A stretch of 21,858 nt of DNA from IMG/VR virus record IMGVR_UViG_3300045413_000312, positions 1 to 21,858 of that record. The stretch is one strand, 5' to 3'. This DNA comes from a virus. Shown here piece after piece: positions 1,427 through 18,892 of the stretch (positions within the stretch are counted from its first letter, which is position 1; each line of letters begins with the position of its first letter). The notes beneath the pieces were generated by a model. That model worked only from the letters and a program-made list of their open reading frames with translations. It was not told the origin of the DNA and did not search any database. Both the position numbers and the translations under genes were made by a program.

Positions 1427-3409
1427 TTACGCTTCGCCTTTGGCCTTGATGCCCGCGAGTGGCTCGGCCTGGTCGACGCCGAAATCGAAGTAGCCGCGAA
1501 ACTGAATTCCCAGCTTGTTGAAGTCCGCGTCGGCCGCCTCCACGGTGGGCGTCTGCACACCGTCAAGGAAGCTCACCGCGATTGAGGCGAGAATGCCGGG
1601 ATTGCGGAACAAGTACCATGCTTTGGCCGAATTCCCCGCGAACTCGGCGTCGCTCAGCCAGTCGCATACAACCGGGCGGTACTTGCCGGCGTGAATGTTG
1701 TCGCTGGGCACGGTGTCCTTGGTCGACGCGCCGCCGGTGTTGACGGTCGTACTCTGGAAGAGTCGCTGCGCGATGAATTGAAGCTCCGGTGGAATGAGGA
1801 GGATGGTAGGGACGCCTCCAATCCGCTTCTTGTCGGGCGATTTCAACTTGCGAAAGGCCAGGATGCCTTGCTGTAGGCCGCCGCCGTCGAGGTCGAGCGC
1901 CGTGTTCGCTCCACTGATGTAATTGCCTCGGCCTCCCGTGAAGAACGAGGCGTTGTCGAGGAAGGTTTTCCAGAACACGGTGTTGAACCGGCGTGCCGCC
2001 CCCGCTCCAAGCTTGGAGCGGATGTCGTCGAACGCGCCCATGTCGTCGTCGATGATCTTGTCGCGCGTCAAGGAGAACATCTTGCCGTACGTCTTTGCCT
2101 GACGCGTGTAGGTTTCTTCCGACATCTTGCCGTGTTTCAGCTCACCGTCCGGCCCCACCTCGTCATACTCCATTTCGTCCAAGGGACGGTGACTTGTCAC
2201 GGTCTTGAAGTCGCTGACCGAACGGATGACGGCGATCTCGCGCCACGTTTGGTCTTCCTCCTGGTAGGCGCCGAGAAGTTCCTTGTTGGCGAGATTGGAG
2301 AGGATCGCGGGCAGAGAAAGCGTGCTCGCCCCTGACGCCCGCATGGACTGTGGAACGGTCCATGCGAAGTGCAAGGCTTCCCTCAGGTTGGACATGTCGA
2401 TATAGGGAGAACCGGTGTAGCCGTTGGCTTGAGCGACGAGGTAGACAACGTGGCGGAACTTCAAGTGCCGGCCAAAGCGATCTTCGGCCGCTTGAAGCAA
2501 TCCCGCGTCGTAGTGACGTTCCGGTTCCATCTGCGTCCGCGTGAGCGCGAGGGCGGCCTCAATCACGCACGCAACCGGATATCGATCACCCGTGCGTGGG
2601 CCGGCGATGACCGGCGCGAGCGGACGATCCAGGCGCAGCTTTGCCAGCTCGGCGCGGGCTTCGTCCCAGCCTTCTTGGATTGCCGTGGCCTCGACCTCGG
2701 TGTGTTGACCAGCAAAGATTCGCCGGATCGCCGCGATCCGTTTGATCTCGCCTGCCGCCGCGTTGCGCAGCGACTGCACGGTCTCCGACGCGTCCAGCGC
2801 TGGCGTATCCAGGTTGCAGGTCGTTGACGTTTCGGTGGTCATGGTTGAACTCTCCTGGGCCGTAGCGGCCACGCTTGCACTGGTGTTTCCGTCCGCGCCG
2901 AGGTCAACGAAGCTGATTTCACCCAAGGTAGACTTGCGGACGATGACGACCGGGCCGGCAAACTCCCGACCGTTGGCCGTGGCCACTTGGCCATCCTTCG
3001 CGAACTCGAATTGGTCGACCCGGGCGCCGATGCTCGCCTGCCAGGGAAATCCATTCCGCGAGCCGGCCACTACGCGGTCGGTGTCGGGGCCGGGAATGCT
3101 CAGAACACCCGAGGCAACCAGTCGGCCCGCGTCTTGTGCGATGGCGTGCGTATGGCCGACGAGGCGGTCAATGTTGTGGCCGACACGGATCGGGCGGTTC
3201 TGCGACGGAATCGCCATACCCGCCAGGTCGACGACGACCGGGTACTTCCATTCGGCCAGTCGCATCGACCCACCTGTGTAGGCGACCATGCTGAAGCGAG
3301 GCAATGAAGGCGAAGCCTCCCCTGCCTTCACCGCTTCGTCGGAGGCGATTTCCATCGTTGCCGTGAGCCACAACTTGTCAGGCATCGTTGCGAGCGGATT
3401 CTTCGGCAT
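1427..3409 (-). CDS. Fused prohead protease - Mu gpT-like major capsid protein
   Basis: This 660-aa protein seems to carry the capsid maturation protease, a scaffold-like segment and the major capsid subunit on one chain. Residues about 40-180 resemble HK97-type prohead proteases (U35/S78): His78 in VGHNIDRL, Ser126 in WQASIGAR and Glu164 in TLGEISFVDLGAD fit the expected His/Ser/acid pattern. Residues about 205-265 are charged and alpha-helical (scaffold or delta-domain like). Residues about 270-660 resemble the Mu gpT-type capsid family, with TYGKMFSLTRDKIIDDDMGAF as the clearest segment, around residues 440-460. The start has GGAGG a few bases upstream and lies 32 bases inside the portal gene's 3' end. 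The catalytic residues are assigned by pattern, not by alignment. Confidence 0.85.
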   Translation of the reverse strand: MPKNPLATMPDKLWLTATMEIASDEAVKAGEASPSLPRFSMVAYTGGSMRLAEWKYPVVVDLAGMAIPSQNRPIRVGHNIDRLVGHTHAIAQDAGRLVASGVLSIPGPDTDRVVAGSRNGFPWQASIGARVDQFEFAKDGQVATANGREFAGPVVIVRKSTLGEISFVDLGADGNTSASVAATAQESSTMTTETSTTCNLDTPALDASETVQSLRNAAAGEIKRIAAIRRIFAGQHTEVEATAIQEGWDEARAELAKLRLDRPLAPVIAGPRTGDRYPVACVIEAALALTRTQMEPERHYDAGLLQAAEDRFGRHLKFRHVVYLVAQANGYTGSPYIDMSNLREALHFAWTVPQSMRASGASTLSLPAILSNLANKELLGAYQEEDQTWREIAVIRSVSDFKTVTSHRPLDEMEYDEVGPDGELKHGKMSEETYTRQAKTYGKMFSLTRDKIIDDDMGAFDDIRSKLGAGAARRFNTVFWKTFLDNASFFTGGRGNYISGANTALDLDGGGLQQGILAFRKLKSPDKKRIGGVPTILLIPPELQFIAQRLFQSTTVNTGGASTKDTVPSDNIHAGKYRPVVCDWLSDAEFAGNSAKAWYLFRNPGILASIAVSFLDGVQTPTVEAADADFNKLGIQFRGYFDFGVDQAEPLAGIKAKGEA

Positions 3410-4829
3410 GCTGATCCTCCGAGTTCTGGTTGTCTGGATTAGCCATCGTCGCTTGGGCAGGGCTTAGTCCCAACTCGGCCATGAGGGCGATTTCTTTCGC
3501 TCGCTGACGCAGGGCGTCTTCCCAGTCTCGTCCCTGGCGAGCGTACTCGTGGGCAAGTGTGGTCGTGTGATTGGCGAGGCGCGTGGCCTGGGCCGTTGCT
3601 TCCTTCGCGGGATCGACATGTTCTTGACCGTCCCAAAACCAAGCATGGTCAAGGTCGATGAACGGATCGAGGCCCGCCGGTAGAAAACCGGGAATGAGGG
3701 CTGCTTCGTCGAACCAGGCGGCGAGGAGTCGGTCGAGGATCGTGTCTTCGATCTGGGCCTGCTCGACGCGAATCGCCTTGAAATACGTCTGATGGTCGAG
3801 GCGCCCGGATGCATAGTTGTAGGCGGACGAATTGCCTGCCGCGACGTTGAACGGCATGTTCAGGCAACGTGCGATCTCGTTAAGGATTTCCTTCTTGAAC
3901 TCGGCATAGGTCGTTGCCGGTTGTTCCGCTTGAAGCTGGCTCATCTTCCAGCCGCCGGGCATCGTCACGAGCGCCCGCTGTTCCAGTTCGATCGGCTCGA
4001 ACGGTTCTGCCGCCTCGGATTCGCCTCCCGCGGGTGCATCGGTGTAGAGGATGCCCGCGAAGTCGGCTGCGGTCTCGGCGGCGGCGATCACGGCGAGCGT
4101 GAACCGCCGAAGCTGCGCGAAGAGTGGCAACGCCGGCATGATATCGGGAATGCCGCGAGCCTGGCCTGGTCGGTCCACGCGGAACCAGTGCAATATGGCC
4201 GCCGCCGGAATACGGTCAAACGCGAGCGCCTGACGGAATGTCACGCCTCCTGGGTGCTCCCTGAGCACGTGGTATTCAACTGGGTTGCCGTATGCATCGA
4301 ACACAATCCCATCGACCGTTGCACCGAGACGCGGGTCCGGCGACATTACCTGGTCGGCCTCGACGAGCTTGAGATCGAGTTGTACGCGATGAGGCAGCCT
4401 CGCGTTGCTCGTAAGCAGGGCAAAAGATTCGCCATCCGTGGCGCGAGCACACCGCATCGTGCGGAGTTTTTCGGCAAGGCGGATCGCCGTTGCCCAACGT
4501 CCGAACTCCCTTTCAATTCGCCGATTGGCGTCAACATCTTCCGTGAGCAATTGCAAGCGCGGACCGGTGCCGATCACATCGTTGGCCAGGGTCAGGACGA
4601 TTCCACGAGCGTAGCTATTGTTTGCGACCTCGTAGCGAGCCCTATTTCGCAAGACACGCCGAACTTCGGCGCTATTGGCGGCGTTCGCCGAGAGCCCGTC
4701 CGCATTGGCCCAGTGCCGGCGATTGTCAGGATTGGTCACTGCCGCGTCATAGCGAGCGCGGACGACACGCGTGGCCCGACGTGCTGACGGCGCCTTGGAT
4801 GGAAACAGGTTGGAAAGCCAACGGAACAC
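3378..4829 (-). CDS. Phage portal protein, lambda gpB family
   Basis: A 483-aa portal protein of the lambda type. Portals form the dodecameric ring at one capsid vertex through which terminase packages DNA. The N-terminus carries a basic stretch followed by NADGLSANAANSAEVRRVLRNRARYEVANNSYARGIV (residues about 41-77), characteristic of this family. The VEADQV block and the WFRVDRPGQARGIP block, which includes the family's GQ.RG.P motif, follow in the expected order. The start is GTG, directly after the TGA of the preceding small gene and about nine bases after GGGAG. The C-terminus overlaps the capsid fusion gene by 32 bases. The position between terminase and protease/capsid is canonical. 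Confidence 0.93.
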   Translation of the reverse strand: MFRWLSNLFPSKAPSARRATRVVRARYDAAVTNPDNRRHWANADGLSANAANSAEVRRVLRNRARYEVANNSYARGIVLTLANDVIGTGPRLQLLTEDVDANRRIEREFGRWATAIRLAEKLRTMRCARATDGESFALLTSNARLPHRVQLDLKLVEADQVMSPDPRLGATVDGIVFDAYGNPVEYHVLREHPGGVTFRQALAFDRIPAAAILHWFRVDRPGQARGIPDIMPALPLFAQLRRFTLAVIAAAETAADFAGILYTDAPAGGESEAAEPFEPIELEQRALVTMPGGWKMSQLQAEQPATTYAEFKKEILNEIARCLNMPFNVAAGNSSAYNYASGRLDHQTYFKAIRVEQAQIEDTILDRLLAAWFDEAALIPGFLPAGLDPFIDLDHAWFWDGQEHVDPAKEATAQATRLANHTTTLAHEYARQGRDWEDALRQRAKEIALMAELGLSPAQATMANPDNQNSEDQHAEESARNDA

Positions 4830-5027
4830 TCAGTTGACTCCCGGCGGAACAAGTTTGTTGAGCTTCAAGCCCCGCTTCTTTTCCTGGGCAGCCTTCTTGG
4901 ACGCAAGGTAACGGTCGGCCTCGATCTGATCCGGCAGCGGATGCTGCTCAACGCTACCAGCATCGCTTGCGGCCTTCGCAGGCCCCTGGGCGTTCTGGCG
5001 GATCGTGTCATCGAGTTCATCGGCCAC
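4830..5027 (-). CDS. Small head-tail region protein, unknown
   Basis: A 65-aa, charged, soluble protein between terminase and portal. It starts with GTG, with GAGGTGA six bases upstream, and stops immediately before the portal GTG. The sequence NAQGPAKAASDAGSVEQHPL followed by DRYLASKKAAQEK looks conserved and helical, and it ends with KLVPPGVN. Small proteins at this place in phage maps are often connector or head-tail joining proteins, but this one does not look like lambda gpW, so no function is claimed. It is the first gene after the promoter-like repeat at 5065-5105. Confidence 0.75.
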   Translation of the reverse strand: MADELDDTIRQNAQGPAKAASDAGSVEQHPLPDQIEADRYLASKKAAQEKKRGLKLNKLVPPGVN

Positions 5028-5064: not shown

Positions 5065-5105
5065 CTAATAGGGACCTACCTAGCGGAGGTCGCGACTGTA
5101 AAAGA
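5065..5105 (-). promoter_or_regulatory. Promoter-like bipartite element, copy 1 (head operon)
   Basis: On the minus strand TCTTTTACA (5105-5097) is followed by a 17-base spacer and GTAGGTCCCTATTAG (5079-5065). The same two blocks with the same spacer occur once more at 17026-17066. TTTACA resembles a -35 box; the 15-base block would cover the -10 region through the start site. The block ends 37 bases before the GTG of the first head gene. No standard TATAAT is present at the normal distance, which suggests a non-housekeeping sigma factor or an activator. In this copy the distal block also forms the 11-bp palindrome CCCTATTAGGG. Confidence 0.6.
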
Positions 5106-7794: not shown

Positions 7795-7934
7795 GACCAG
7801 GCCTCCGAAAAATCTTCAGAATTCTGGACAGCTTCGCTTGAACCCTTCCGCGACGCGAGGTAAGTCACTGACCCTGCGTTGCATCGCGATGTCCGCGACT
7901 CCGCATTCCGCAACACCGTAACGGGAGAAACATC

Positions 7935-8294
7935 ATGGCGAAGAAGAACACCACGAAGCTGAAAGTCGTCGCTGCCCCGGCCGACGCCACGCCCGGCAAG
8001 AAGGGCGCGAAGGCCAAGGCGACCACGCCCGCGAAGGCCAAACCCGCAGCCGAAGCCAAGCCGAAGAAGCTGAGCGCCATTGACGCCGCCGCCAAGGTCC
8101 TTGGCGAGGCGGGCCAACCGATGAACTGCAAGGAGATGATCGAGGCGATGGCGGCGAAAGGGTACTGGACGAGCCCCGGCGGCAAGACCCCGCACGCGAC
8201 CCTTTACAGCGCCATCTTGCGCGAATGCGCCACCAAGGGCAAAGACGCCCGGTTCACCAAGACCGAGCGTGGCAAGTTCGCCGCCAAGGCGTAG
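7935..8294 (+). CDS. HARE-HTH winged-helix protein with histone-like tail
   Basis: A 119-aa protein, one of only two genes on the plus strand. Residues 1-50 are Lys/Ala/Pro-rich and resemble histone H1-like tails (KKGAKAKATTPAKAKPAAEAKPKK). Residues about 50-117 match the HARE-HTH winged helix: AAAKVLGEAGQPMNCKEMIE, then MAAKGYW and TLYSAILREC. The start has GGGAGAAAC upstream and the gene ends at a strong hairpin terminator. Such proteins are thought to bind DNA and are recurrent in planctomycete genomes, to my recollection. It could be a cargo gene with its own promoter that alters chromosome packing or silences the prophage. Confidence 0.85.
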   Translation: MAKKNTTKLKVVAAPADATPGKKGAKAKATTPAKAKPAAEAKPKKLSAIDAAAKVLGEAGQPMNCKEMIEAMAAKGYWTSPGGKTPHATLYSAILRECATKGKDARFTKTERGKFAAKA

Positions 8295-10919: not shown

Positions 10920-11231
10920 GGTGTCCCTCCAAAAATCCGGACATGCAAAACAAACTCTGTCCCGCTTGGCGACTGTTCCCGTCGGGATCAGAAAAAAATC
11001 GTATCGCCGGAAGTACCTATGCCGACCCGGAGGCTAGGGGGAACGGGGGGAGGAGAGGGGAGAGAGAGAAGAAGAGAGTAGTAATTGCAGTTTTTGTAGT
11101 TCTTGCCTATGCGCGCGATTTCCTTTCTCTCATCGCGAGCTTGAGCAAAAACGTCAATTACCGCAATTACTCCCCTTTCCAATCTCTCACCCTCCCTTTT
11201 GCGAGCAGCGCAACAACTGCAAGAACTGCAA
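10920..11231. other. Non-coding region between replication and modification genes
   Basis: About 310 bases with no credible gene. It holds a 34-base uninterrupted purine run (11045-11078) preceded by a G tract, a 26-base inverted repeat, extra CAATTAC repeats and a CGCGAT/ATCGCG hairpin (11114-11119 and 11132-11137). The proximal 70 bases contain the ribosome binding site for the Cys-rich gene and a run of seven A on the plus strand at about 10992-10998. No promoter with good boxes was found. The density of repeats next to the primase gene suggests a replication origin. Confidence 0.6.
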
Positions 11232-11235
11232 TTAC
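11081..11235. repeat. Inverted repeat with CAATTAC iterons, candidate origin
   Basis: Two 26-base arms (11081-11106 and 11210-11235) are inverted copies with 23 of 26 positions matching, separated by 103 bases. The heptamer CAATTAC occurs at 11155-11161, 11164-11170 and 11229-11235, and inverted at 11081-11087. Within the right arm AACTGCAA is repeated twice in tandem. The right arm includes the stop codon of the primase-polymerase gene. Origin iterons, a transcription terminator or a regulator binding site would all fit; origin is favoured because a replication gene adjoins it. Confidence 0.55.
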
Positions 11236-13382
11236 TTCCCCATCTCATCCGGCACCGTCGGCTTGATGCGATAGCCAGCCGTTGGCCGTCCTCCCTTGCG
11301 TCCCGGCGGCCTCATCTCGAACTCGATCAGGCGCTGCTGCAGCAGCGTGTCGCGAACCTCATCGTGATCGCGGCTCGACCACGGCAGCTTCCGGTTGATC
11401 CGCCAGAACGGCATCCATTCGTCGCCATTCTGCCGGCGCCATTGCTCGAGAACGTCGAGTAGGCGCTTGCGCTTGCCGTCGAACTCGCTCTCGCTCGCGT
11501 AGTGCCGCGCCATGAACAGCATCCGCCTGGTCTGGTGCTCGATGAACGCGCCAGCCCAGGTCGCCGCCTCGGGCGTGATGACCGGGTTGTCCCGGCAGGC
11601 GCTGATCGTGTGCAGCAGAGCAAGCCGTCTGGCCTTCTCGTAGGCCCGCGCCCAGATCGCCATGCCGGCGGGGTCGTTGGCCTGCTCGCACTGGGTGTAC
11701 TCTGCGTCGGCCCGTTCGCGGACGGCGCGGAACACCGCGCCGGCGTCTTGGGTCTGAGCCACGCGATGTGGAACCGGATGCCATGCGGCCAGGTTGCCCG
11801 AGGCGCCGGGGCGGAAGTCAGCCCACCAGCGCGCGGCCTCGAGGATCGACGGCGGGATCGGCCGCTCGGTGTCGTCGCGGCCCACGCCACGGCCACGGCA
11901 TTCGAGGATGATGAGGCGGGCCAGGAAGCCGTTGGTCATCAATCGCGCCGAAAGCGACTCGTAGAAGTGCTTGGGCACGGCGGTGCCGAACAAGCACAGG
12001 CACGGCTGGTCGATGACGGCTCGTTCCTGGTTCGCCTTGGCCCGCATCACGTAGATGCTCGAGGCCGACGAGTACATCTGCAGCAGCATCGACACGATGG
12101 CCTCGTGCCGGGCGTCGCGGGCCTGGCCCACGCGCAACAGCAATCCGTCGATCTCGTCGACCTGGAACAGCGTGGCCGGCTGAACGAACAGCCGATCCTC
12201 GATGCCTTCGCCGCTGGCGAAGCTGGTGCCCAGGCAGTCGGCCAGTCCGGCCTCGTACAGGATGCGAGCGTTGACCTTGCGAGCGTGATCCTTGCCGACG
12301 CCGGAGTTCGCCAGGCTGAGCACGTAAAGGTTCGTGCGATTGTCCATCGTGTCGCGAACCTTGCGGCCGGCCAGCAGCGCTTGCAGCGTCAGGGCACCGG
12401 CGAACGCCAGCACCGGCTCGGGATACGGTGCCGTGTCCAGTGTGTAACGCATGACCTCGTCAATGAAACCCGGCGCGGTCAGCAGCTCGTCCGGTACTGG
12501 CCCGGGGTCAACGAGCGCCGGCTCGTCGTTATCGTCGTCGGCCTGCATCTGTGCGTAGTGGTTTTCGACGAGCGCGACCGACACGTTGTCCGGCTCGTAT
12601 CGCGCGATGCTTCCGGCGATCAGCTCGACTCTTGCCGCCGACACCGGCGGCAGGCAGCGGTCTTGGTTGACCCGGTGGAGTGCAGCGGCCATTTCGGGCT
12701 GGGACATCCCGACCCGGCGCATGGTGCCGGCCAGTCTCGCCAGGGTCGCGTTTCGTTGCCCGTCCGGGATCTTGTTCGACTCGAACGTACCGGTCGCCTC
12801 GTTGGGGGCCGTGGGCGTTCCGTTGGCCGTACGCCGCCCCGAACCGATCTGGTCGAGCGCCTCGGCCAACCACGGCGGCGGCTCAGGAAGCTTGTCGGGC
12901 GGAACGTCGAGTTCGAGGCCCTCGATCCACTGGTACACGCCGTCGGGACGCGCTGATGGCGCGACGACGAAATAGCCGCCGTCGGTTCGCGTATCGACCC
13001 TCGGCGCTAACCGGCTTGCCGTGCACCGCCAGGCCTTGTCCGCGGGCCGGCGGAACACATGGTGCCGACCGCCGCGCGGCGTCAGCGCCGAGGGGGCGGC
13101 TGCCAAATCGAGAAGCTTTTCCGGATCGTCGTTGAGCCAGGGATTGGCTTCGCCTGGCCCCAGCGGATCGAGATCGACGACGAGCAGCCCTTCGGCGGCG
13201 ATGCCGATGTTGGCGTCAGGGATGCCGGTCCACCAAGTCTCGATCTGGGAGGCATCGGTGGTCGCATCCTTGAAGCCGTGCTTGGTCGCCGGTTTGTTGT
13301 CGCCTGGCGTGCAGGGAAAGACCCGGTAGCCCAACCCGGCATAGTAAAGGGCAGACGCGAGCAGCGCGTTTGACGTCACCAC
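11232..13382 (-). CDS. Bifunctional primase-polymerase with DUF3987-like helicase domain
   Basis: A 716-aa replication protein. Residues 1-175 form an archaeo-eukaryotic-type prim-pol domain: VFPCTPGDNKPATKHGFKDATTD, the metal-binding DLD (70-72) and RHHVF (106-110). Residues about 205-265 are a small helical domain, perhaps primase C-terminal. Residues about 320-590 form a P-loop region resembling DUF3987: ANSGVGKD at 358-365 and FQVDEID at 406-412. The Walker A lysine is followed by Asp, not Ser/Thr. The start is GTG at 13382 or the second GTG at 13379; the latter overlaps the helicase stop as GTGA and lies eight bases after AGGAG. It probably primes and unwinds phage DNA. Confidence 0.88.
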   Translation of the reverse strand: MVTSNALLASALYYAGLGYRVFPCTPGDNKPATKHGFKDATTDASQIETWWTGIPDANIGIAAEGLLVVDLDPLGPGEANPWLNDDPEKLLDLAAAPSALTPRGGRHHVFRRPADKAWRCTASRLAPRVDTRTDGGYFVVAPSARPDGVYQWIEGLELDVPPDKLPEPPPWLAEALDQIGSGRRTANGTPTAPNEATGTFESNKIPDGQRNATLARLAGTMRRVGMSQPEMAAALHRVNQDRCLPPVSAARVELIAGSIARYEPDNVSVALVENHYAQMQADDDNDEPALVDPGPVPDELLTAPGFIDEVMRYTLDTAPYPEPVLAFAGALTLQALLAGRKVRDTMDNRTNLYVLSLANSGVGKDHARKVNARILYEAGLADCLGTSFASGEGIEDRLFVQPATLFQVDEIDGLLLRVGQARDARHEAIVSMLLQMYSSASSIYVMRAKANQERAVIDQPCLCLFGTAVPKHFYESLSARLMTNGFLARLIILECRGRGVGRDDTERPIPPSILEAARWWADFRPGASGNLAAWHPVPHRVAQTQDAGAVFRAVRERADAEYTQCEQANDPAGMAIWARAYEKARRLALLHTISACRDNPVITPEAATWAGAFIEHQTRRMLFMARHYASESEFDGKRKRLLDVLEQWRRQNGDEWMPFWRINRKLPWSSRDHDEVRDTLLQQRLIEFEMRPPGRKGGRPTAGYRIKPTVPDEMGK

Positions 13383-15091
13383 GGAATCTCCTCCTCCGTG
13401 GTCGCTGCCACGTTGTAGCCGAACGGAAAGTCCATCGCGTCGTCGCTCGAAACACCCGCTTCATCCATGTCGCTCGACGGCTCGGGGATCGGCCCGAGCT
13501 CGTGGTCGATGATGCGGTCGTACCTCTCGCCGGTGACCGAGCGCACCGTGATTGTGAGCGTCGGCGCCAGGCCGCCATCGTTGGCGATTTCGACGGCATC
13601 GGCTGCGGAATCAGGAACTGGAAGGTGCGACCGCTTGCACCACCAGGCGCCCGCCTTCTGCCTGGCAAAGCCATCGTGCTCGAGACAGACCCATTCCGAT
13701 TTCCACAGGTGCCAGCCGACCTTGTAGTCGACGCGCATCGACTTCGGCGCATCGTTGCCGGCGCCGCGCTTGGTGTGGATGCTGTAGAACACGTCGGCAA
13801 CAGTGAATTTTGCCGTCGTCACCTGGCCCGAAAGAACTTCGGCCTCACTGGCCTTGGCGGCGTGTTTGCTTCGCGCTCGCTGCGGAAATTCGTAACCGCA
13901 GTCGGGGCAGCACGCATAGGCGGCGGCGATGATCGACCGGCATTCGGGGCACTCCTTCACCGGCGCCCGTCCATCTTCGTCGCCGCTGTAGGTCTTGACG
14001 CGGATTTGATCGACCGGACCATGCCGCATCACGTTGCCGCCGAAGTCCAGCACGAGGCAGTTCTGCTTGCTGGGATGAAGGCGAAATCCGCGGCCGACCA
14101 TCTGGTAGTAAAGGCCGGCGGAAAGCGTCGGTCGGACCAGGACGACGCAGTCGATGTTCGGCGCGTCGAAGCCGGTGGTAAGCACGTTGACGTTGCACAG
14201 GTACTTGAGGCCGCCAGCTTTGAATCGCGTCAGGATCGCGTGCCGCTCCTCCGGTGGCGTTTCGCCGGTGACGAAGCCACACTCAATGCCGTGTTTTTCC
14301 TGGAGCACTTGCACAATGTGCTCGCCGTGCTTGATGCCGCTGGCAAAAATCAACACCGCGTTGCGATTGCCCGTATAGCCGACGATCTCACCGCATGCGG
14401 CTTCTACGAGCCCATCGTCGTCCATCAGGTCCTCGACCTCGTCGGCGACGAATTCACCGCCTCGGACATGCAACCGGCTGAAATCCGCTTTGTTGATGCC
14501 CGCTTTGGTGATCAAGGGACAAAGGAAACCTTGCACGATCAGCTCGCGAACCCCGACCTGGTAACAGACGTGGTTCAAGAACCCATCCGGCGTGCAGATG
14601 GTTCCGGTCTTGAGCCGAAACGGCGTGGCGGTGAAGCCGATGATCCGCAAGTTCGGATTAACCACCTTGGCGTCGGCCAGGAACTGCCGATACATGCCTT
14701 CGCCGTCGGGCGGAATCATGTGCGCTTCGTCCACTACAGCCAAGTCGAACGGATCGAACTCGCACGCTCGCTGATACACCGACTGGATGCCGGCCACGAT
14801 CACCGAGTTGGCCTTGTCGCGTCGCTTGAGACCCGCCGAGTAGACACCGTAGCGGACCTCGGGGCAGATCGCGTTGAGCTTGTCGGCGGTCTGCTCGAGC
14901 AGTTCCTTCACGTGGGCCAGGATGATCACCCGGCCCTGCCACAATCCGACGGCGTCCTGGCAGATCGATGCCATTACGGGCGTCTTGCCGCCCGCGGTCG
15001 GGATGACCACGCACGGGTTGTCGTCGCGACCGCGCAGATGGTCATACACCGCGAGCTTGGCTTCATGCTGGTAGGGACGCAGGGTGAGCAT
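13376..15091 (-). CDS. SF2 DEAD/DEAH-box helicase with zinc ribbon
   Basis: A 571-aa superfamily 2 helicase. Motif I is PTAGGKT (about 31-37), motif II is DEAH (within VVDEAHMI), motif III is FTATP, and motif VI is MVGRGFRLHPS. LRPYQHEA at the start is the Q-like region. A zinc ribbon follows the second RecA domain (CPECRSIIAAAYACCPDC), and the C-terminal part is unassigned. The ATG at 15091 shares its A with the stop of rusA (TAATG). Such helicases in phage recombination operons may process replication forks or recombination intermediates; the exact substrate is not known. Confidence 0.9.
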   Translation of the reverse strand: MLTLRPYQHEAKLAVYDHLRGRDDNPCVVIPTAGGKTPVMASICQDAVGLWQGRVIILAHVKELLEQTADKLNAICPEVRYGVYSAGLKRRDKANSVIVAGIQSVYQRACEFDPFDLAVVDEAHMIPPDGEGMYRQFLADAKVVNPNLRIIGFTATPFRLKTGTICTPDGFLNHVCYQVGVRELIVQGFLCPLITKAGINKADFSRLHVRGGEFVADEVEDLMDDDGLVEAACGEIVGYTGNRNAVLIFASGIKHGEHIVQVLQEKHGIECGFVTGETPPEERHAILTRFKAGGLKYLCNVNVLTTGFDAPNIDCVVLVRPTLSAGLYYQMVGRGFRLHPSKQNCLVLDFGGNVMRHGPVDQIRVKTYSGDEDGRAPVKECPECRSIIAAAYACCPDCGYEFPQRARSKHAAKASEAEVLSGQVTTAKFTVADVFYSIHTKRGAGNDAPKSMRVDYKVGWHLWKSEWVCLEHDGFARQKAGAWWCKRSHLPVPDSAADAVEIANDGGLAPTLTITVRSVTGERYDRIIDHELGPIPEPSSDMDEAGVSSDDAMDFPFGYNVAATTEEEIPW

Positions 15092-15435
15092 TACACCTTC
15101 CGAATGCGAACAAGGGTTTTGCCGCCGGAGGCCGGCTGGCGCTTGGTCACTTCCAGGCGGACGATCTGGCTGTCGTCCGCATAGGCGCCACCGTGCTGGA
15201 GCGCGTCGAGCAGGCTTTTCAGTGCGTTGTCGACATCGCGCCGGCGCCGGTCGGGCGGGTGCAGATCGATCTCGATTTCCAGCGGACCGTCGAGCCTCAG
15301 CACGCGACGCCGGGCCAGGATGGCCACAACCTCGGCGCGAAAGGCCCGCCCCGTGCGGCTGATCAGCGTGTGATGCCCCACCCGCCGCCAGTAGTGGTTG
15401 ATCGACGGCGGGTAGGGGAGTTCGACCTCGAACAT
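15091..15435 (-). CDS. rusA: RusA-family Holliday junction resolvase
   Basis: A 114-aa endonuclease that cuts four-way junctions. The N-terminus has LPYPPSINHYWR, the typical PPS.N..W family start. RRRDVDNALKSLLDAL (about 64-79) gives Asp67, Asp69 and Lys73, and AYADDSQI gives Asp88; these match the metal-binding and catalytic pattern of RusA. The ATG at 15435 overlaps the DUF669 stop (TGATG). The length is normal for the family. It would resolve replication or recombination intermediates before packaging. Confidence 0.93.
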   Translation of the reverse strand: MFEVELPYPPSINHYWRRVGHHTLISRTGRAFRAEVVAILARRRVLRLDGPLEIEIDLHPPDRRRRDVDNALKSLLDALQHGGAYADDSQIVRLEVTKRQPASGGKTLVRIRKV

Positions 15436-15908
15436 CAGCGCCTCCACGGCGGGGTGCCATTCAACGCAGGCGCCGGAGTTGGCGCTGGCGTCTGCGGCAG
15501 TGGTTGCGGAGATTCCTTCTTCGCGTACCCCTTGACCTCGTTCGTGATGTCGTTGGTGTCGGTCCACTTCTTGCATTTCACCGTGATCAGGAGCGGCAGG
15601 TTGTGGAGCTCGACCGAATCGTTCGGGGCGAGAACCCCAACCGCACGGCAGATCGCCGACAACTCGGCCTGGGCGATCTTCATCGTCGTCTCGTTGTTGT
15701 TGATCAGGTTCAAACGGCCCCACACCTTGCGTCCCTTGTGCGGCCCGTCGATGATCTCGAAGGTCAGTTGCAGGTAGCTCCCGGTCCCGGCCTTAGTCGG
15801 CTTCATCTCCGAGTCGATGATGACGGCGAGATACTTGCCGGCGGGAAGCGGATCGTAGTCGGTCGATGGCTCGACGCGCGTGGCGTCGAACCCGGCGAGG
15901 CTAGCCAT
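15435..15908 (-). CDS. DUF669 single-strand DNA-binding-like protein
   Basis: A 157-aa protein resembling DUF669, a phage family encoded next to RecA-like ATPases and thought to bind ssDNA. Early residues show YDPLPAGKYLAVIIDSEMKPTKAGTG, then YLQLTFEIIDGPHKGRKVWGRLNL, a beta-rich OB-like pattern. The C-terminal tail (about 130-157) is proline-rich and disordered and ends in PPWRR, as expected for a protein-interaction tail, although it is not acidic like the SSB tail. The ATG lies eight bases inside the ATPase gene. Confidence 0.85.
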   Translation of the reverse strand: MASLAGFDATRVEPSTDYDPLPAGKYLAVIIDSEMKPTKAGTGSYLQLTFEIIDGPHKGRKVWGRLNLINNNETTMKIAQAELSAICRAVGVLAPNDSVELHNLPLLITVKCKKWTDTNDITNEVKGYAKKESPQPLPQTPAPTPAPALNGTPPWRR

Positions 15909-16689
15909 TGGTGTTTGCTCCTTGAGTTGCGGGTTGATTGGAAAGCGCGTTGACGAAGGCGTCCCACGACAGGGGAAGCTCCTCGGTTAGTCCGAAACGA
16001 TTCTTGGCCACACAGCTTGGCCCACCGACGGTGCGGAGGATGCGCTCGCCGCCGTCCTTGCCGATCGCGTGCGCGATGGTGCGCTTGCGGCCGAAGCCGG
16101 CGTCCTCGCTCTGGGTGCGGAACTTCCTGGTCGCGAACAGCACGGCGTCGCACCATTCGCTGACCAGCGCCGACGCATGCTTGTGCAGGCGCGGCGAATA
16201 GCGGTCGTACGGCGAGGCCTCGGGATCCTCGAACTTCTCGACCTTGGCGTGGGCGATGAGCATGATCACCATGCCGCGCTGGCTTCGCAGCAGGTTGAGC
16301 TGATCGATGACCTCGCGCCAATGCGTGAGGGCGTGGTTGTAACCGCGGGCGTAGCCGCCGTCGGCCTTCTCGATGTTCTTCACCGAGAACTCAGCACAGA
16401 CGCGATCCCAGATCAGCCGTTCCAGCCAGTCGAGGCTGTCGAGAACCACGGTCTCGAAGTCGTGCTGCTGCGTTCGCAGCTCCTTGAGGGCCGCGATCAC
16501 TTCGTCGACGCTGGCAGCCAGCGGAAACTTGGCGCAGTCGATCTCGTCAAGACCGTCTTCGGTTGGTACGAACACCGGCTTGGGCGCCTGCGAGCCGAAG
16601 GTGCTTTTGCCGATGCCGGGCGTACCGTACACGAGCAAGCGCGGCGGCCTGGGTGTGCGTCCCTTCTGGACACGCGACAACAAACTCAT
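15901..16689 (-). CDS. Sak4-type RecA-like ATPase
   Basis: A 262-aa AAA_24/RecA-like ATPase of the Sak4 kind, a single-strand annealing or strand-exchange recombinase of phages. Walker A is GTPGIGKST (22-30), and Walker B ends in VVLDSLDWLE (81-90, Asp84). IMLIAHAKVEKFEDPEASPYDRYSPRLHK is the typical RecA-fold region with the loop after strand 4. The ATG shares ATGA with the preceding gene, and GAGGAG lies seven to eight bases upstream. The DUF669 partner and RusA follow in the same operon. Host RecA is not needed for some members of this group. Confidence 0.9.
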   Translation of the reverse strand: MSLLSRVQKGRTPRPPRLLVYGTPGIGKSTFGSQAPKPVFVPTEDGLDEIDCAKFPLAASVDEVIAALKELRTQQHDFETVVLDSLDWLERLIWDRVCAEFSVKNIEKADGGYARGYNHALTHWREVIDQLNLLRSQRGMVIMLIAHAKVEKFEDPEASPYDRYSPRLHKHASALVSEWCDAVLFATRKFRTQSEDAGFGRKRTIAHAIGKDGGERILRTVGGPSCVAKNRFGLTEELPLSWDAFVNALSNQPATQGANTNG

Positions 16690-16994
16690 ACGTGGATCTC
16701 CTCTTGTTGGTGAATGGGGTTGGATTCGGTGATGCGGTCGAGGCGGAATGCCGAGGCGGCGAGTTCGCGCCGGATGAAACCGATGAAGAGGCGGTTCAGA
16801 TCCTGGCCGACCGGCGAGCTCGCGTCGATGACGCAGGCGCGTCGTTGCTTGTCGAACAGGCAACCAGCTTCGAGGCGAACTTGGGTTTCGCCGTGCAGGC
16901 TTTCCGTGCCCCAGAACGCCAGGAGCAGCGTGCATTCGACGTCCGCGAGGGATACGTCGGGCGCAAAGGTGTAGCGGTAGATGTTTCGCGTCAT
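16686..16994 (-). CDS. Conserved phage protein, unknown
   Basis: A 102-aa protein, first gene after the promoter-like element at 17026-17066. No known family is recognised. It begins MTRNIYRYTFAPDVSLADVE and contains SLHGETQVRL and IDASSPVGQDLNRLFIGFIRREL, which look conserved and folded (alpha/beta). I see no good ribosome binding site in the 31 bases between the promoter block and the ATG. The stop overlaps the Sak4 gene as ATGA, so it may be an accessory to recombination or only a regulator of the operon. Confidence 0.75.
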   Translation of the reverse strand: MTRNIYRYTFAPDVSLADVECTLLLAFWGTESLHGETQVRLEAGCLFDKQRRACVIDASSPVGQDLNRLFIGFIRRELAASAFRLDRITESNPIHQQEEIHV

Positions 16995-17025: not shown

Positions 17026-17066
17026 CTAATAGGGACCTACTTTTCGCCCGCGCGACTTGTAAAAGA
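17026..17066 (-). promoter_or_regulatory. Promoter-like bipartite element, copy 2 (recombination operon)
   Basis: TCTTTTACA (17066-17058), a 17-base spacer and GTAGGTCCCTATTAG (17040-17026) on the minus strand, identical in both blocks to copy 1 at 5065-5105. Only the spacer bases differ, and even there GTCGCG is shared near the first block. The first block starts three bases after the sigma gene's stop codon, and the second ends 31 bases before the next gene's ATG. The match extends into TCTGTG just upstream. Confidence 0.6.
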
Positions 17067-17069
17067 AAG

Positions 17070-17660
17070 TCACAGATATTCGCGAAGGTCGCTTCGCTCG
17101 CACGCCAGGCGAATGCGGTTTAGCCGGGCGTGGGCCGAGACGCGCGTGATTCTGATCTGCCTTGCGGCTTCCGAAATGGATGTTGCCATCAACTCATCGC
17201 ACATCGCCCTTGTCTTGGGCGTCAACGTCGCCAGGAATTCGGCCAGGTCCATCGCCAGGTCGGCGGCGTCGATCCAGGAGCGTGGCCGGCATCCGGTTCG
17301 GCGTTCGTGGCAGTCGTCCGCCAGCGTCTCGCCAATGCGGACCTCGATGCCGTCCGCGTCGTCCGTCGACTCGTCCAGTGAGGAGGCCCGCTGGTAACGC
17401 ATCTCCGCGCGCTGATGAATGAGGATGCTCGCGACGCGGTTCTGGCAAACCACGACCACGAATGCTTCCCAGGTGCCGTCCTTGGGATCGAAATAATGGA
17501 GCTTGCGGTGCAGGAGATCCGCCGCGAAATCGTGCATCAAGTCTTCCCGGTCTTCGGCGGTGAAGCAGCCCTGCCGGATGAGTTGGCGGACCTTGGCTCG
17601 AATGAAACGAGACGAAAACGGATCGATGCTGTCGAGGTAATGCCTGGTCTTGGACTTCAT
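17070..17660 (-). CDS. ECF-like RNA polymerase sigma factor
   Basis: A 196-aa protein of the sigma-70 family in the short form that has regions 2 and 4 only. Region 2 is about 19-85: FIRAKVRQLIRQG, DREDLMHDFAADLL, YFDPKDGTWEAFV and QNRVASILIHQR. Region 4 is about 137-187: AEFLATLTPKTRAMCDELMA followed by the HTH SISEAARQIRITRVSAHARLNRIR. A linker of about 50 residues lies between. The start at 17660 has GAGGAG seven bases upstream, but this site lies in a hairpin. It probably recruits host RNA polymerase to phage promoters; the promoter-like elements adjoining it and the head operon are candidate targets. Confidence 0.8.
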   Translation of the reverse strand: MKSKTRHYLDSIDPFSSRFIRAKVRQLIRQGCFTAEDREDLMHDFAADLLHRKLHYFDPKDGTWEAFVVVVCQNRVASILIHQRAEMRYQRASSLDESTDDADGIEVRIGETLADDCHERRTGCRPRSWIDAADLAMDLAEFLATLTPKTRAMCDELMATSISEAARQIRITRVSAHARLNRIRLACERSDLREYL

Positions 17661-17835
17661 GAAACATCTCCTCGGACCACCGAGGAGGGGAAGTGGAAGC
17701 AGCCAAGCGCCGGCGTGGAAATGGCACGAGCGGAAACGTGCGAAGAGCGCCGAGTCTCGGCGACTCCCACAACGCCTCCGCTCGTGCGGCCGGTTGGTTG
17801 TTCGGAATCGAATGTCTGGCAACGGTGCCGGCCGT
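17661..17835 (-). promoter_or_regulatory. Structured leader of the sigma factor gene
   Basis: The 175 bases before the sigma gene contain no gene but two strong secondary structures. In the minus-strand RNA an outer 11-bp stem (17724-17734 with 17777-17787) encloses a 7-bp stem (17748-17754 with 17756-17762), and then an 8-bp stem, CUCCUCGG and CCGAGGAG (17687-17680 with 17675-17668), with loop UGGU, includes the GAGGAG ribosome binding site. No T-run follows either stem, so neither resembles a simple terminator. The arrangement is that of a translational switch. Confidence 0.6.
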
Positions 17836-18263: not shown

Positions 18264-18287
18264 GCACTTTGTCAGGCACTTTGTCAG
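18264..18287. repeat. 12-bp tandem repeat
   Basis: Two perfect copies of GCACTTTGTCAG lie at 18264-18275 and 18276-18287, followed by a partial third (GCAC). An imperfect hairpin ATCGCC...GGCGAT (18292-18297 with 18308-18313) follows. This is within the 226-base gene-free stretch 18163-18388. It could be a regulator binding array or a remnant of a REP-like element; nothing further was recognised there. Confidence 0.6.
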
Positions 18288-18388
18288 GCACATCGCCTTT
18301 TTTTCAGGGCGATCTTGGGGCACTTCCCGGCACAGACAGGCACGCACCACGGGGCTCGGGCAATGCAGTGTTGGCATGGAACCTCGCG

Positions 18389-18892
18389 CTACGGGGACGA
18401 CCTTCGTCTGACACCCCCGTTGACGCGTTCGAGAAGCCCCTCATCCACGAGCCTGCGAACGGCATCGCGGAAATAGCCGCAGTAGGAGTAGTCAGCGAGC
18501 TTCGCGAGTACCTTCACCGGCCTTGGGACGCTGGAGGCCACAGACAAGATGGCTTTCTCGACGTCGTTCCGGATTCGCTCCTGCGCCGGCGGGTCAGGCG
18601 ACGGCGCGGGCGATGGATGCGTAGAGGTTAACTTGGCCAGAGCTGAAACACCTGGAGCCGACGTTGCCTCCTGTCGGTCCAGTGCCATCTCCGCGATTCG
18701 CTTGACCACCTCGGGGTGGATGTGCAGTGGGCCGTCGTAGGGCGAAACCATCACGACTACTTGCAGGCGATGCTGTTCAGACCGCGCGGTCCCGGCAATG
18801 GTATTGAGGGGCGGCAAAGCGCCTTCTTCAATGAGTTTGGCAAGGATCTTGTGTGCGTTGACGTGAGTGATATCTGACAGCATGGCGCGCAC
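18389..18892 (-). CDS. Winged-helix protein, candidate regulator
   Basis: A protein of 167 aa from the GTG at 18892. Residues about 111-163 look like a winged helix: EKAILSVASSVPRPVKVLAKLADYSYCGYFRDAVRRLVDEGLLERVNG. The N-terminal part MLSDITHVNAHKILAKLIEEGALPP may be a second HTH, and a proline-rich linker (91-103) joins them. The frame stays open upstream to about 18991 and reads QWLGPWTVRAMLS through the GTG, but it offers no ATG, GTG or TTG, so the true start is unclear: either an unusual CTG or a damaged 5' end. It lies downstream of a likely promoter and may be the prophage repressor or a control protein. Confidence 0.6.
   Translation of the reverse strand: MRAMLSDITHVNAHKILAKLIEEGALPPLNTIAGTARSEQHRLQVVVMVSPYDGPLHIHPEVVKRIAEMALDRQEATSAPGVSALAKLTSTHPSPAPSPDPPAQERIRNDVEKAILSVASSVPRPVKVLAKLADYSYCGYFRDAVRRLVDEGLLERVNGGVRRRSSP

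Follow-up and report, generated by a model that had tools for sequence, protein, structure and literature searches.

The locus described here raises the question of whether a sigma factor encoded by a virus could direct the host RNA polymerase to two widely separated operons of the same genome. The window (the whole stretch of DNA that was analysed) was a linear virus record of 21,858 bases, and nearly all of its genes were carried by the minus strand in the order recombinase, small genes, sigma factor, ORF102, AAA-24 ATPase, DUF669, RusA, helicase, prim-pol primase, methylase, terminase, Zn-ribbon protein, ORF65, portal and head protease/capsid. The sequence-only reading had claimed that the sigma gene adjoins a repeated element and that a matched copy lies 12 kb away ahead of the head genes, and both statements were confirmed. 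The sigma gene is a real open reading frame (17070–17660, minus strand; ATG at 17660, stop at 17072–17070), and site 1 begins 2–3 bases past its stop codon with CTTTTACA, followed by 17 nt and then GTAGGTCCCTATTAG. The −35-like half of site 1 (TTTACA) lies at 17058–17063 and the −10-like half (GTAGGTCCCTATTAG) at 17026–17040, both on the minus strand, and this copy as a whole precedes the ORF102 start codon (16994) by 31 nt in the reading direction. Site 2 (5102–5065), 12 kb away, repeats this bipartite element with an identical 17-nt spacing, with TTTACA at 5097–5102 and GTAGGTCCCTATTAG at 5065–5079 on the minus strand, 38 nt ahead of the ORF65 start codon (5027) in the reading direction. The further proposal that both copies are targets of the sigma factor was supported: matched sites were found and the distant one tracks the sigma factor. 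One point was corrected, in that site 1, next to the sigma gene, is oriented towards the replication operon and not towards the sigma gene itself, and head genes lie behind site 2 alone.

The genes behind the two sites form two blocks on the minus strand. The first gene behind site 1 is ORF102 (16686–16994), homologues of which occupy the same place in relatives. It is followed by the AAA_24 ATPase of the replication operon (15901–16935, Pfam E 1.6e-49), whose start is probably near 16690, and by the remainder of that operon, namely DUF669, RusA, helicase and prim-pol primase (11232–15908). A 27-nt inverted repeat (11080–11106 and 11210–11236, 89% complementary) was observed in the interval that separates the primase gene from the methylase side. 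The first gene behind site 2 is ORF65 (4830–5027), a gene conserved in 75 of the loci collected at that stage. The portal (3378–4829) and the head protease/major capsid gene (1427–3409) follow as one block (1427–4829; PHROG 21, E 1.9e-58; PHROG 4523, E 3.2e-59).

The protein encoded at 17660–17070 (196 aa) is best read as a two-domain, ECF-type sigma factor, and its binding to the core RNA polymerase is only inferred. The window protein matched PHROG 1740, annotated as RNA polymerase sigma factor (E 1.4e-7), and TIGR02937 of the sigma70-ECF family (E 2.9e-8, under the curated cut-off of that model); taken alone, it reached the cut-off of no Pfam model. TIGR02937 was matched by all 59 sigma relatives, the region 2 signature Sigma70_r2 by 48 of the 59, and the C-terminal helix-turn-helix of region 4 (Sigma70_r4_2) by 10. 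A PDB search with a profile of the family returned ECF SigE/RpoE chains (E 1e-7) that covered regions 2 and 4. Region 2 corresponds to residues ~14–92 and region 4 to residues ~126–196, with a putative recognition helix at 173–189, and the protein consists of these two regions only, without regions 1.1 or 3. The AlphaFold2 model contained two confident helical domains and a linker (pLDDT 90.6, pTM 0.59), and its helices in the region 4 part spanned residues 129–189. Sigma factors, mostly of the ECF type, headed the Foldseek list against the PDB, and phage ECF-type sigma factors were among the matches against viral proteins. The full-length TM-scores against solved sigma factors were low (0.25–0.34), possibly reflecting a different relative position of the two domains, and the Foldseek evidence was weighed by the identity of the matches and not by the TM-score.

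Relatives were anchored by the terminase and AAA-24, and a direct scan with the sigma protein as query confirmed no relative because the sigma factor was too diverged. Among viral contigs, 539 relatives were found by terminase and 328 by AAA-24, and the best 80 of each set were used. In bacterial genomes, 342 stretches matched the terminase, and nearly all of the best 80 of these belonged to Planctomycetota. The isolates with related prophages included Rhodopirellula rubra, Rubripirellula obstinata, Aporhodopirellula aestuarii and strains TBK1r, CA13, SV_7m_r and K23_9. The relatives are phages and prophages of Planctomycetota, and the window virus is assigned to planctomycete bacteria. None of 50,697 phage records searched by tblastn carried this sigma factor, and none matched the terminase over 80% of its length; hence, the lineage is known in these collections only from prophages and metagenomes. 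A search of the viral contigs with the exact bipartite DNA pattern gave a single match, located in an unrelated phage within one of its tail genes, and this was rejected as chance. A literature search on planctomycete prophage sigma factors found nothing relevant.

The sites of each relative were located by a self-search over modules that spanned sigma to portal. The sigma gene lay just ahead of the AAA-24 operon in 46 units. The 120 nt behind each sigma gene were compared with the rest of its own 14–32 kb module, and 8 + 18 positions around an ignored 13-nt spacer were counted (maximum 26). The best self-match lay 66–125 nt ahead of ORF65 (in a few units further out) in about 33 of 45 units. 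These matches scored 20–25 of 26, whereas the next best matches and those on the opposite strand, which represent the chance level, usually scored 18–20. Diverged elements with the same layout occurred between the sigma stop and the ORF102 start and again ahead of ORF65, for example CGTCAAC-...-CCGGGTAGGTCTAC, CGGACAAC-...-GGCATAGGTAAC, GCGTAGTTT-...-CCGGCAAGGGTC, TTCGTCTTT-...-TTGGAAGGTCTAGAGG and TTTCTGGT-...-TTCGCCTAAGTAACCC, and the aligned sites shared one fixed register. The exact 15-mer GTAGGTCCCTATTAG was peculiar to the window phage; the place and pairing were conserved across relatives, and the sequence was not. The idea that the repeat arose by chance or by a mobile duplication, as a footprint of recombination or transposition without a regulatory role, could draw on the window alone, where just two copies exist. 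However, only 0.02 copies of the 15-mer were expected there with up to three mismatches, and two exact copies were observed; moreover, the same two places are occupied in dozens of diverged phages by sequences that have diverged and yet match. The comparative data have already refuted this reading, and practically no weight was left to it.

About ten units had no clear self-matching second site at the expected place. No convincing self-match was obtained in G071a, G085b, G090a, G088b/c, L209 and G057, the match in G030 was weak, and G040 was a rearranged contig. For some of these units, a mosaic origin or a site at another place is likely. Six loci (L021, L022, L024, L027, L047 and L082) carried a terminator-like hairpin of the GGCCATGCGGGGCCGCATCCCCGCGTGGCC-TTTTTT type ahead of ORF65, which replaced sigma site 2. 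L388 (record G057) had a discordant pair that combined a GGACA/GTATGTAACC-type site 1 with a CGACA/GGGTAGGTC-type site 2, and a recombinant is possible. The site classes were counted by eye.

Whether the two sites of one phage belong together was evaluated in 30 phages with sigma factors less than 60% identical, in which the region of site 1 was scored against the region of site 2. Own pairings scored 20.7 on average, whereas shuffled pairings scored 16.2; none of 20,000 shuffles reached the own-pair score (maximum 17.9, z 13.3), and when adjacent DNA or the reverse complement was scored in this way, the z values were 1.7–2.2. The similarity of site 2 between phages followed sigma identity (rho 0.66) and not that of the adjacent terminase (0.12), and the partial correlations were 0.65 and 0.01, respectively. 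Values for AAA-24, DUF669, RusA, helicase, primase, methylase, Zn-ribbon, ORF65 and portal ranged from −0.07 to 0.19. Site 2 was located via its match to site 1 in the correlation and half-site analyses, whereas the shuffled-pairing test was independent of that match.

The two halves of the sites were then considered separately. The partial correlation of the −35 half was larger with region 4 (0.38 for site 1 and 0.30 for site 2) than with region 2 (0.18 and 0.17), whereas that of the −10 half was larger with region 2 (0.38 and 0.49) than with region 4 (0.17 and 0.12). A PRTTL-type recognition helix tended to pair with CGTCA, and [S/P]RR helices with GGACA, GCGCA or GTACA. The sequence-only reading had proposed comparing the covariation of regions 2 and 4 with the blocks in related phages, and the outcome was clearly positive. 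This pattern is as predicted from contacts between region 4 and the −35 half and between region 2 and the −10 half, and the support is statistical and not biochemical. It also bears on the possibility that the repeats are operators of another phage repressor or activator encoded near the sigma gene, so that the correlation with the sigma factor reflects linkage. Operators are typically repeats ahead of operons, and the core of site 2 (CCCTATTAGGG) is palindrome-like. Nevertheless, the half-sites separately follow regions 4 and 2, the sites keep a promoter spacing of 17 nt, and site 2 was not tracked by the other phage proteins tested. Candidate regulators near the sigma gene were also poorly conserved: the HTH gene just upstream of it (18389–18892) had a homologue in no fetched locus, and ORF122 had one in 10 of the 25 loci with enough upstream DNA. 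Such operators were considered unlikely, with only a small chance left to them.

Hosts with several prophages were informative on the source of the sigma factor. The sigma factors of the four prophages in one R. rubra genome were 18–39% identical and their terminases about 85% identical, and each prophage had a matched site pair different from those of the other three; the two-prophage hosts TBK1r, SV_7m_r and Aporhodopirellula showed the same pattern. Planctomycetes encode many ECF factors, and it is conceivable that a phage borrows one of them, in which case a host sigma factor, housekeeping or ECF, would read the sites as promoters and the phage protein would have another role. However, up to four prophages per host carry mutually different sites, each of which matches its own phage only, and one host sigma factor reading all co-resident sites is hard to reconcile with these pairs. 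Furthermore, when two site classes were searched in six host genomes, copies were found almost only in prophages or linked to a recombinase, and a sigma-70-like promoter was not found ahead of the sigma gene. Reading by a host sigma factor was judged even less credible than the operators. The phage sigma factor remains the preferred reader of the sites, and the change of factor and signals in step strongly suggests a private code read by each virus, although transcription data are lacking.

Further sites were found beyond the two main places. The best match on the opposite strand lay 1374–1433 nt ahead of the terminase start in 14 prophages, where it belonged to the class of its own phage and faced an operon of small genes; some of these third sites scored only 17–19 and are supported by their constant place. 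Two phages carried further sites upstream. The corresponding candidate in the window (7833–7871, plus strand) is weak: it was the best plus-strand match and lies ahead of the gene for a HARE-HTH (HB1/ASXL) protein (7935–8294, plus strand), homologues of which occur in 165 fetched loci, and its score of 18/26 taken alone is no better than chance. Orphan GCGCGCA-...-GGCATAGGTAACC(A/G)GGG sites were observed outside paired prophage modules in three hosts (L416 ~6959, L417 ~8720 and L418 ~6470), about 500 nt ahead of a gene pair that ends in a serine recombinase; remnants, satellites and recombinase promoters are candidates for them. Another orphan site, of the TTGGAAGGTCTA class, lay directly ahead of an ORF65-portal-like fragment in strain CA13 (L419 ~6259) and is probably a prophage remnant.

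Neither a matching site nor a sigma-70-like promoter was seen ahead of the sigma gene in the window, and direct positive feedback is not apparent because no site precedes the gene. A hairpin (CTCCTCGG-TGGT-CCGAGGAG, 17668–17687, minus strand) buries its Shine-Dalgarno sequence. Among related sigma leaders, 21 of 52 had a similar hairpin; for other conserved genes the count was 3 of 165 (Fisher P 3e-12), and shuffles gave a mean of 3. Since such a hairpin is present in the window and in these relatives, the sigma factor may be held down at translation. A short tandem repeat (CACTTTGTCAGG twice, ~18266–18295) was also observed upstream of ORF122 in the control region.

The sites, their places, the matched pairing within a phage and the covariation with the sigma factor and with the right sigma region are computed results, from which a mechanism may be proposed. 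The sigma factor would be made from an earlier transcript and would then join the host core RNA polymerase. It would steer the polymerase to two phage promoters, with region 4 reading the −35 half (TTTACA) and region 2 reading the −10 half (GTAGGTC...) across 17 nt. The promoter directly behind the sigma gene would start the replication operon, the promoter 12 kb away would start ORF65-portal-capsid, and a third operon may also be fired in some phages. In related phages, the sigma factor and its two or three promoters would have changed together, giving each phage a private promoter code. We regard it as highly probable that an ECF-type phage sigma factor sends the host polymerase to replication and head promoters that have co-diversified privately in each phage, with core binding, transcription and timing inferred. 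The temporal switch proposed by the sequence-only reading likewise remains an inference without expression data, and one of its two targets is the replication operon. With less assurance, but still on balance, we favour the view that this lineage of planctomycete phages and prophages carries a natural library of at least a dozen sets that are orthogonal to one another, each with a sigma factor and two or three promoters separated by as much as 30 kb. These sets may co-diversify because several prophages share one cell and need to avoid activating one another.

It is an open question in regulatory evolution how specificity shifts jointly in a regulator and in its several separate binding sites. 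This question becomes directly testable with the 34 natural sigma/site sets, whose half-sites follow the two DNA-reading domains. The sets could yield rules for predicting ECF promoters and could serve as orthogonal expression switches. The matched sets suggest that co-resident prophages avoid cross-induction, and they offer a first view of possible gene control in Planctomycetota phages, a group not represented by any sequenced isolate of this kind in the phage collection.

Several known systems are comparable. T4 gp55 and SPO1 gp28 and gp33-gp34 are phage-made specificity factors that reprogram the host polymerase and need coactivators, and T4 late promoters are single-box; the likeness lies in the phage-made factor, and the proteins are different. 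The two-domain make-up, the top Foldseek matches and the presence of TIGR02937 in all relatives resemble bacterial ECF sigma factors (SigE, SigH, SigL and RpoE). Bacterial ECF sigma factors are usually autoregulated and paired with an adjacent anti-sigma factor, although such a partner is not a requirement, whereas for the window sigma factor autoregulation was not seen and no anti-sigma factor was recognised among the neighbouring genes by Pfam/PHROG-type profile matches. The suggestion that matched phage sigma/site sets were undescribed did not stand, since ECF-type sigma factors with several matched promoters are known from phages 7-11 (gp47) and phiEco32 (gp36) (PMC8948821). SaPh711_gp47 of Salmonella phage 7-11 has region 4, binds the host core polymerase and has eight bipartite promoters (GTAAtg-(16)-aCTA) ahead of late genes; its gene lies in the late cluster and is fed by a late promoter, and the hosts are enterobacteria (PMC8948821). 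In the related E. coli phage phiEco32, the promoters occupy similar genome positions but are unrelated in sequence, and other sigma/promoter pairs have been predicted in further phages (PMC8948821). The phiEco32 gp36 drives middle and late genes via matched promoters with a single element (tAATGTAtA), lacks region 4 homology and works with the co-regulator gp79 (PMC8948821, PMC4331800). The present system shares with phage 7-11 a phage sigma factor and several matched promoter-like sites per genome ahead of phage operons, and with phiEco32 a phage sigma factor with matched promoters; unlike gp36, the window protein has region 4 and bipartite sites. It further differs from 7-11 in its recombinase-bearing planctomycete phages, in having two or three promoters with none ahead of the sigma gene, and in the many matched specificities inside one lineage, and it shares no phage lineage with either system, as judged from the searched phage records. 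The principle of a phage ECF sigma switch is therefore not new; what appears to be new is the extent and the matched diversification of sigma/promoter sets within one lineage.
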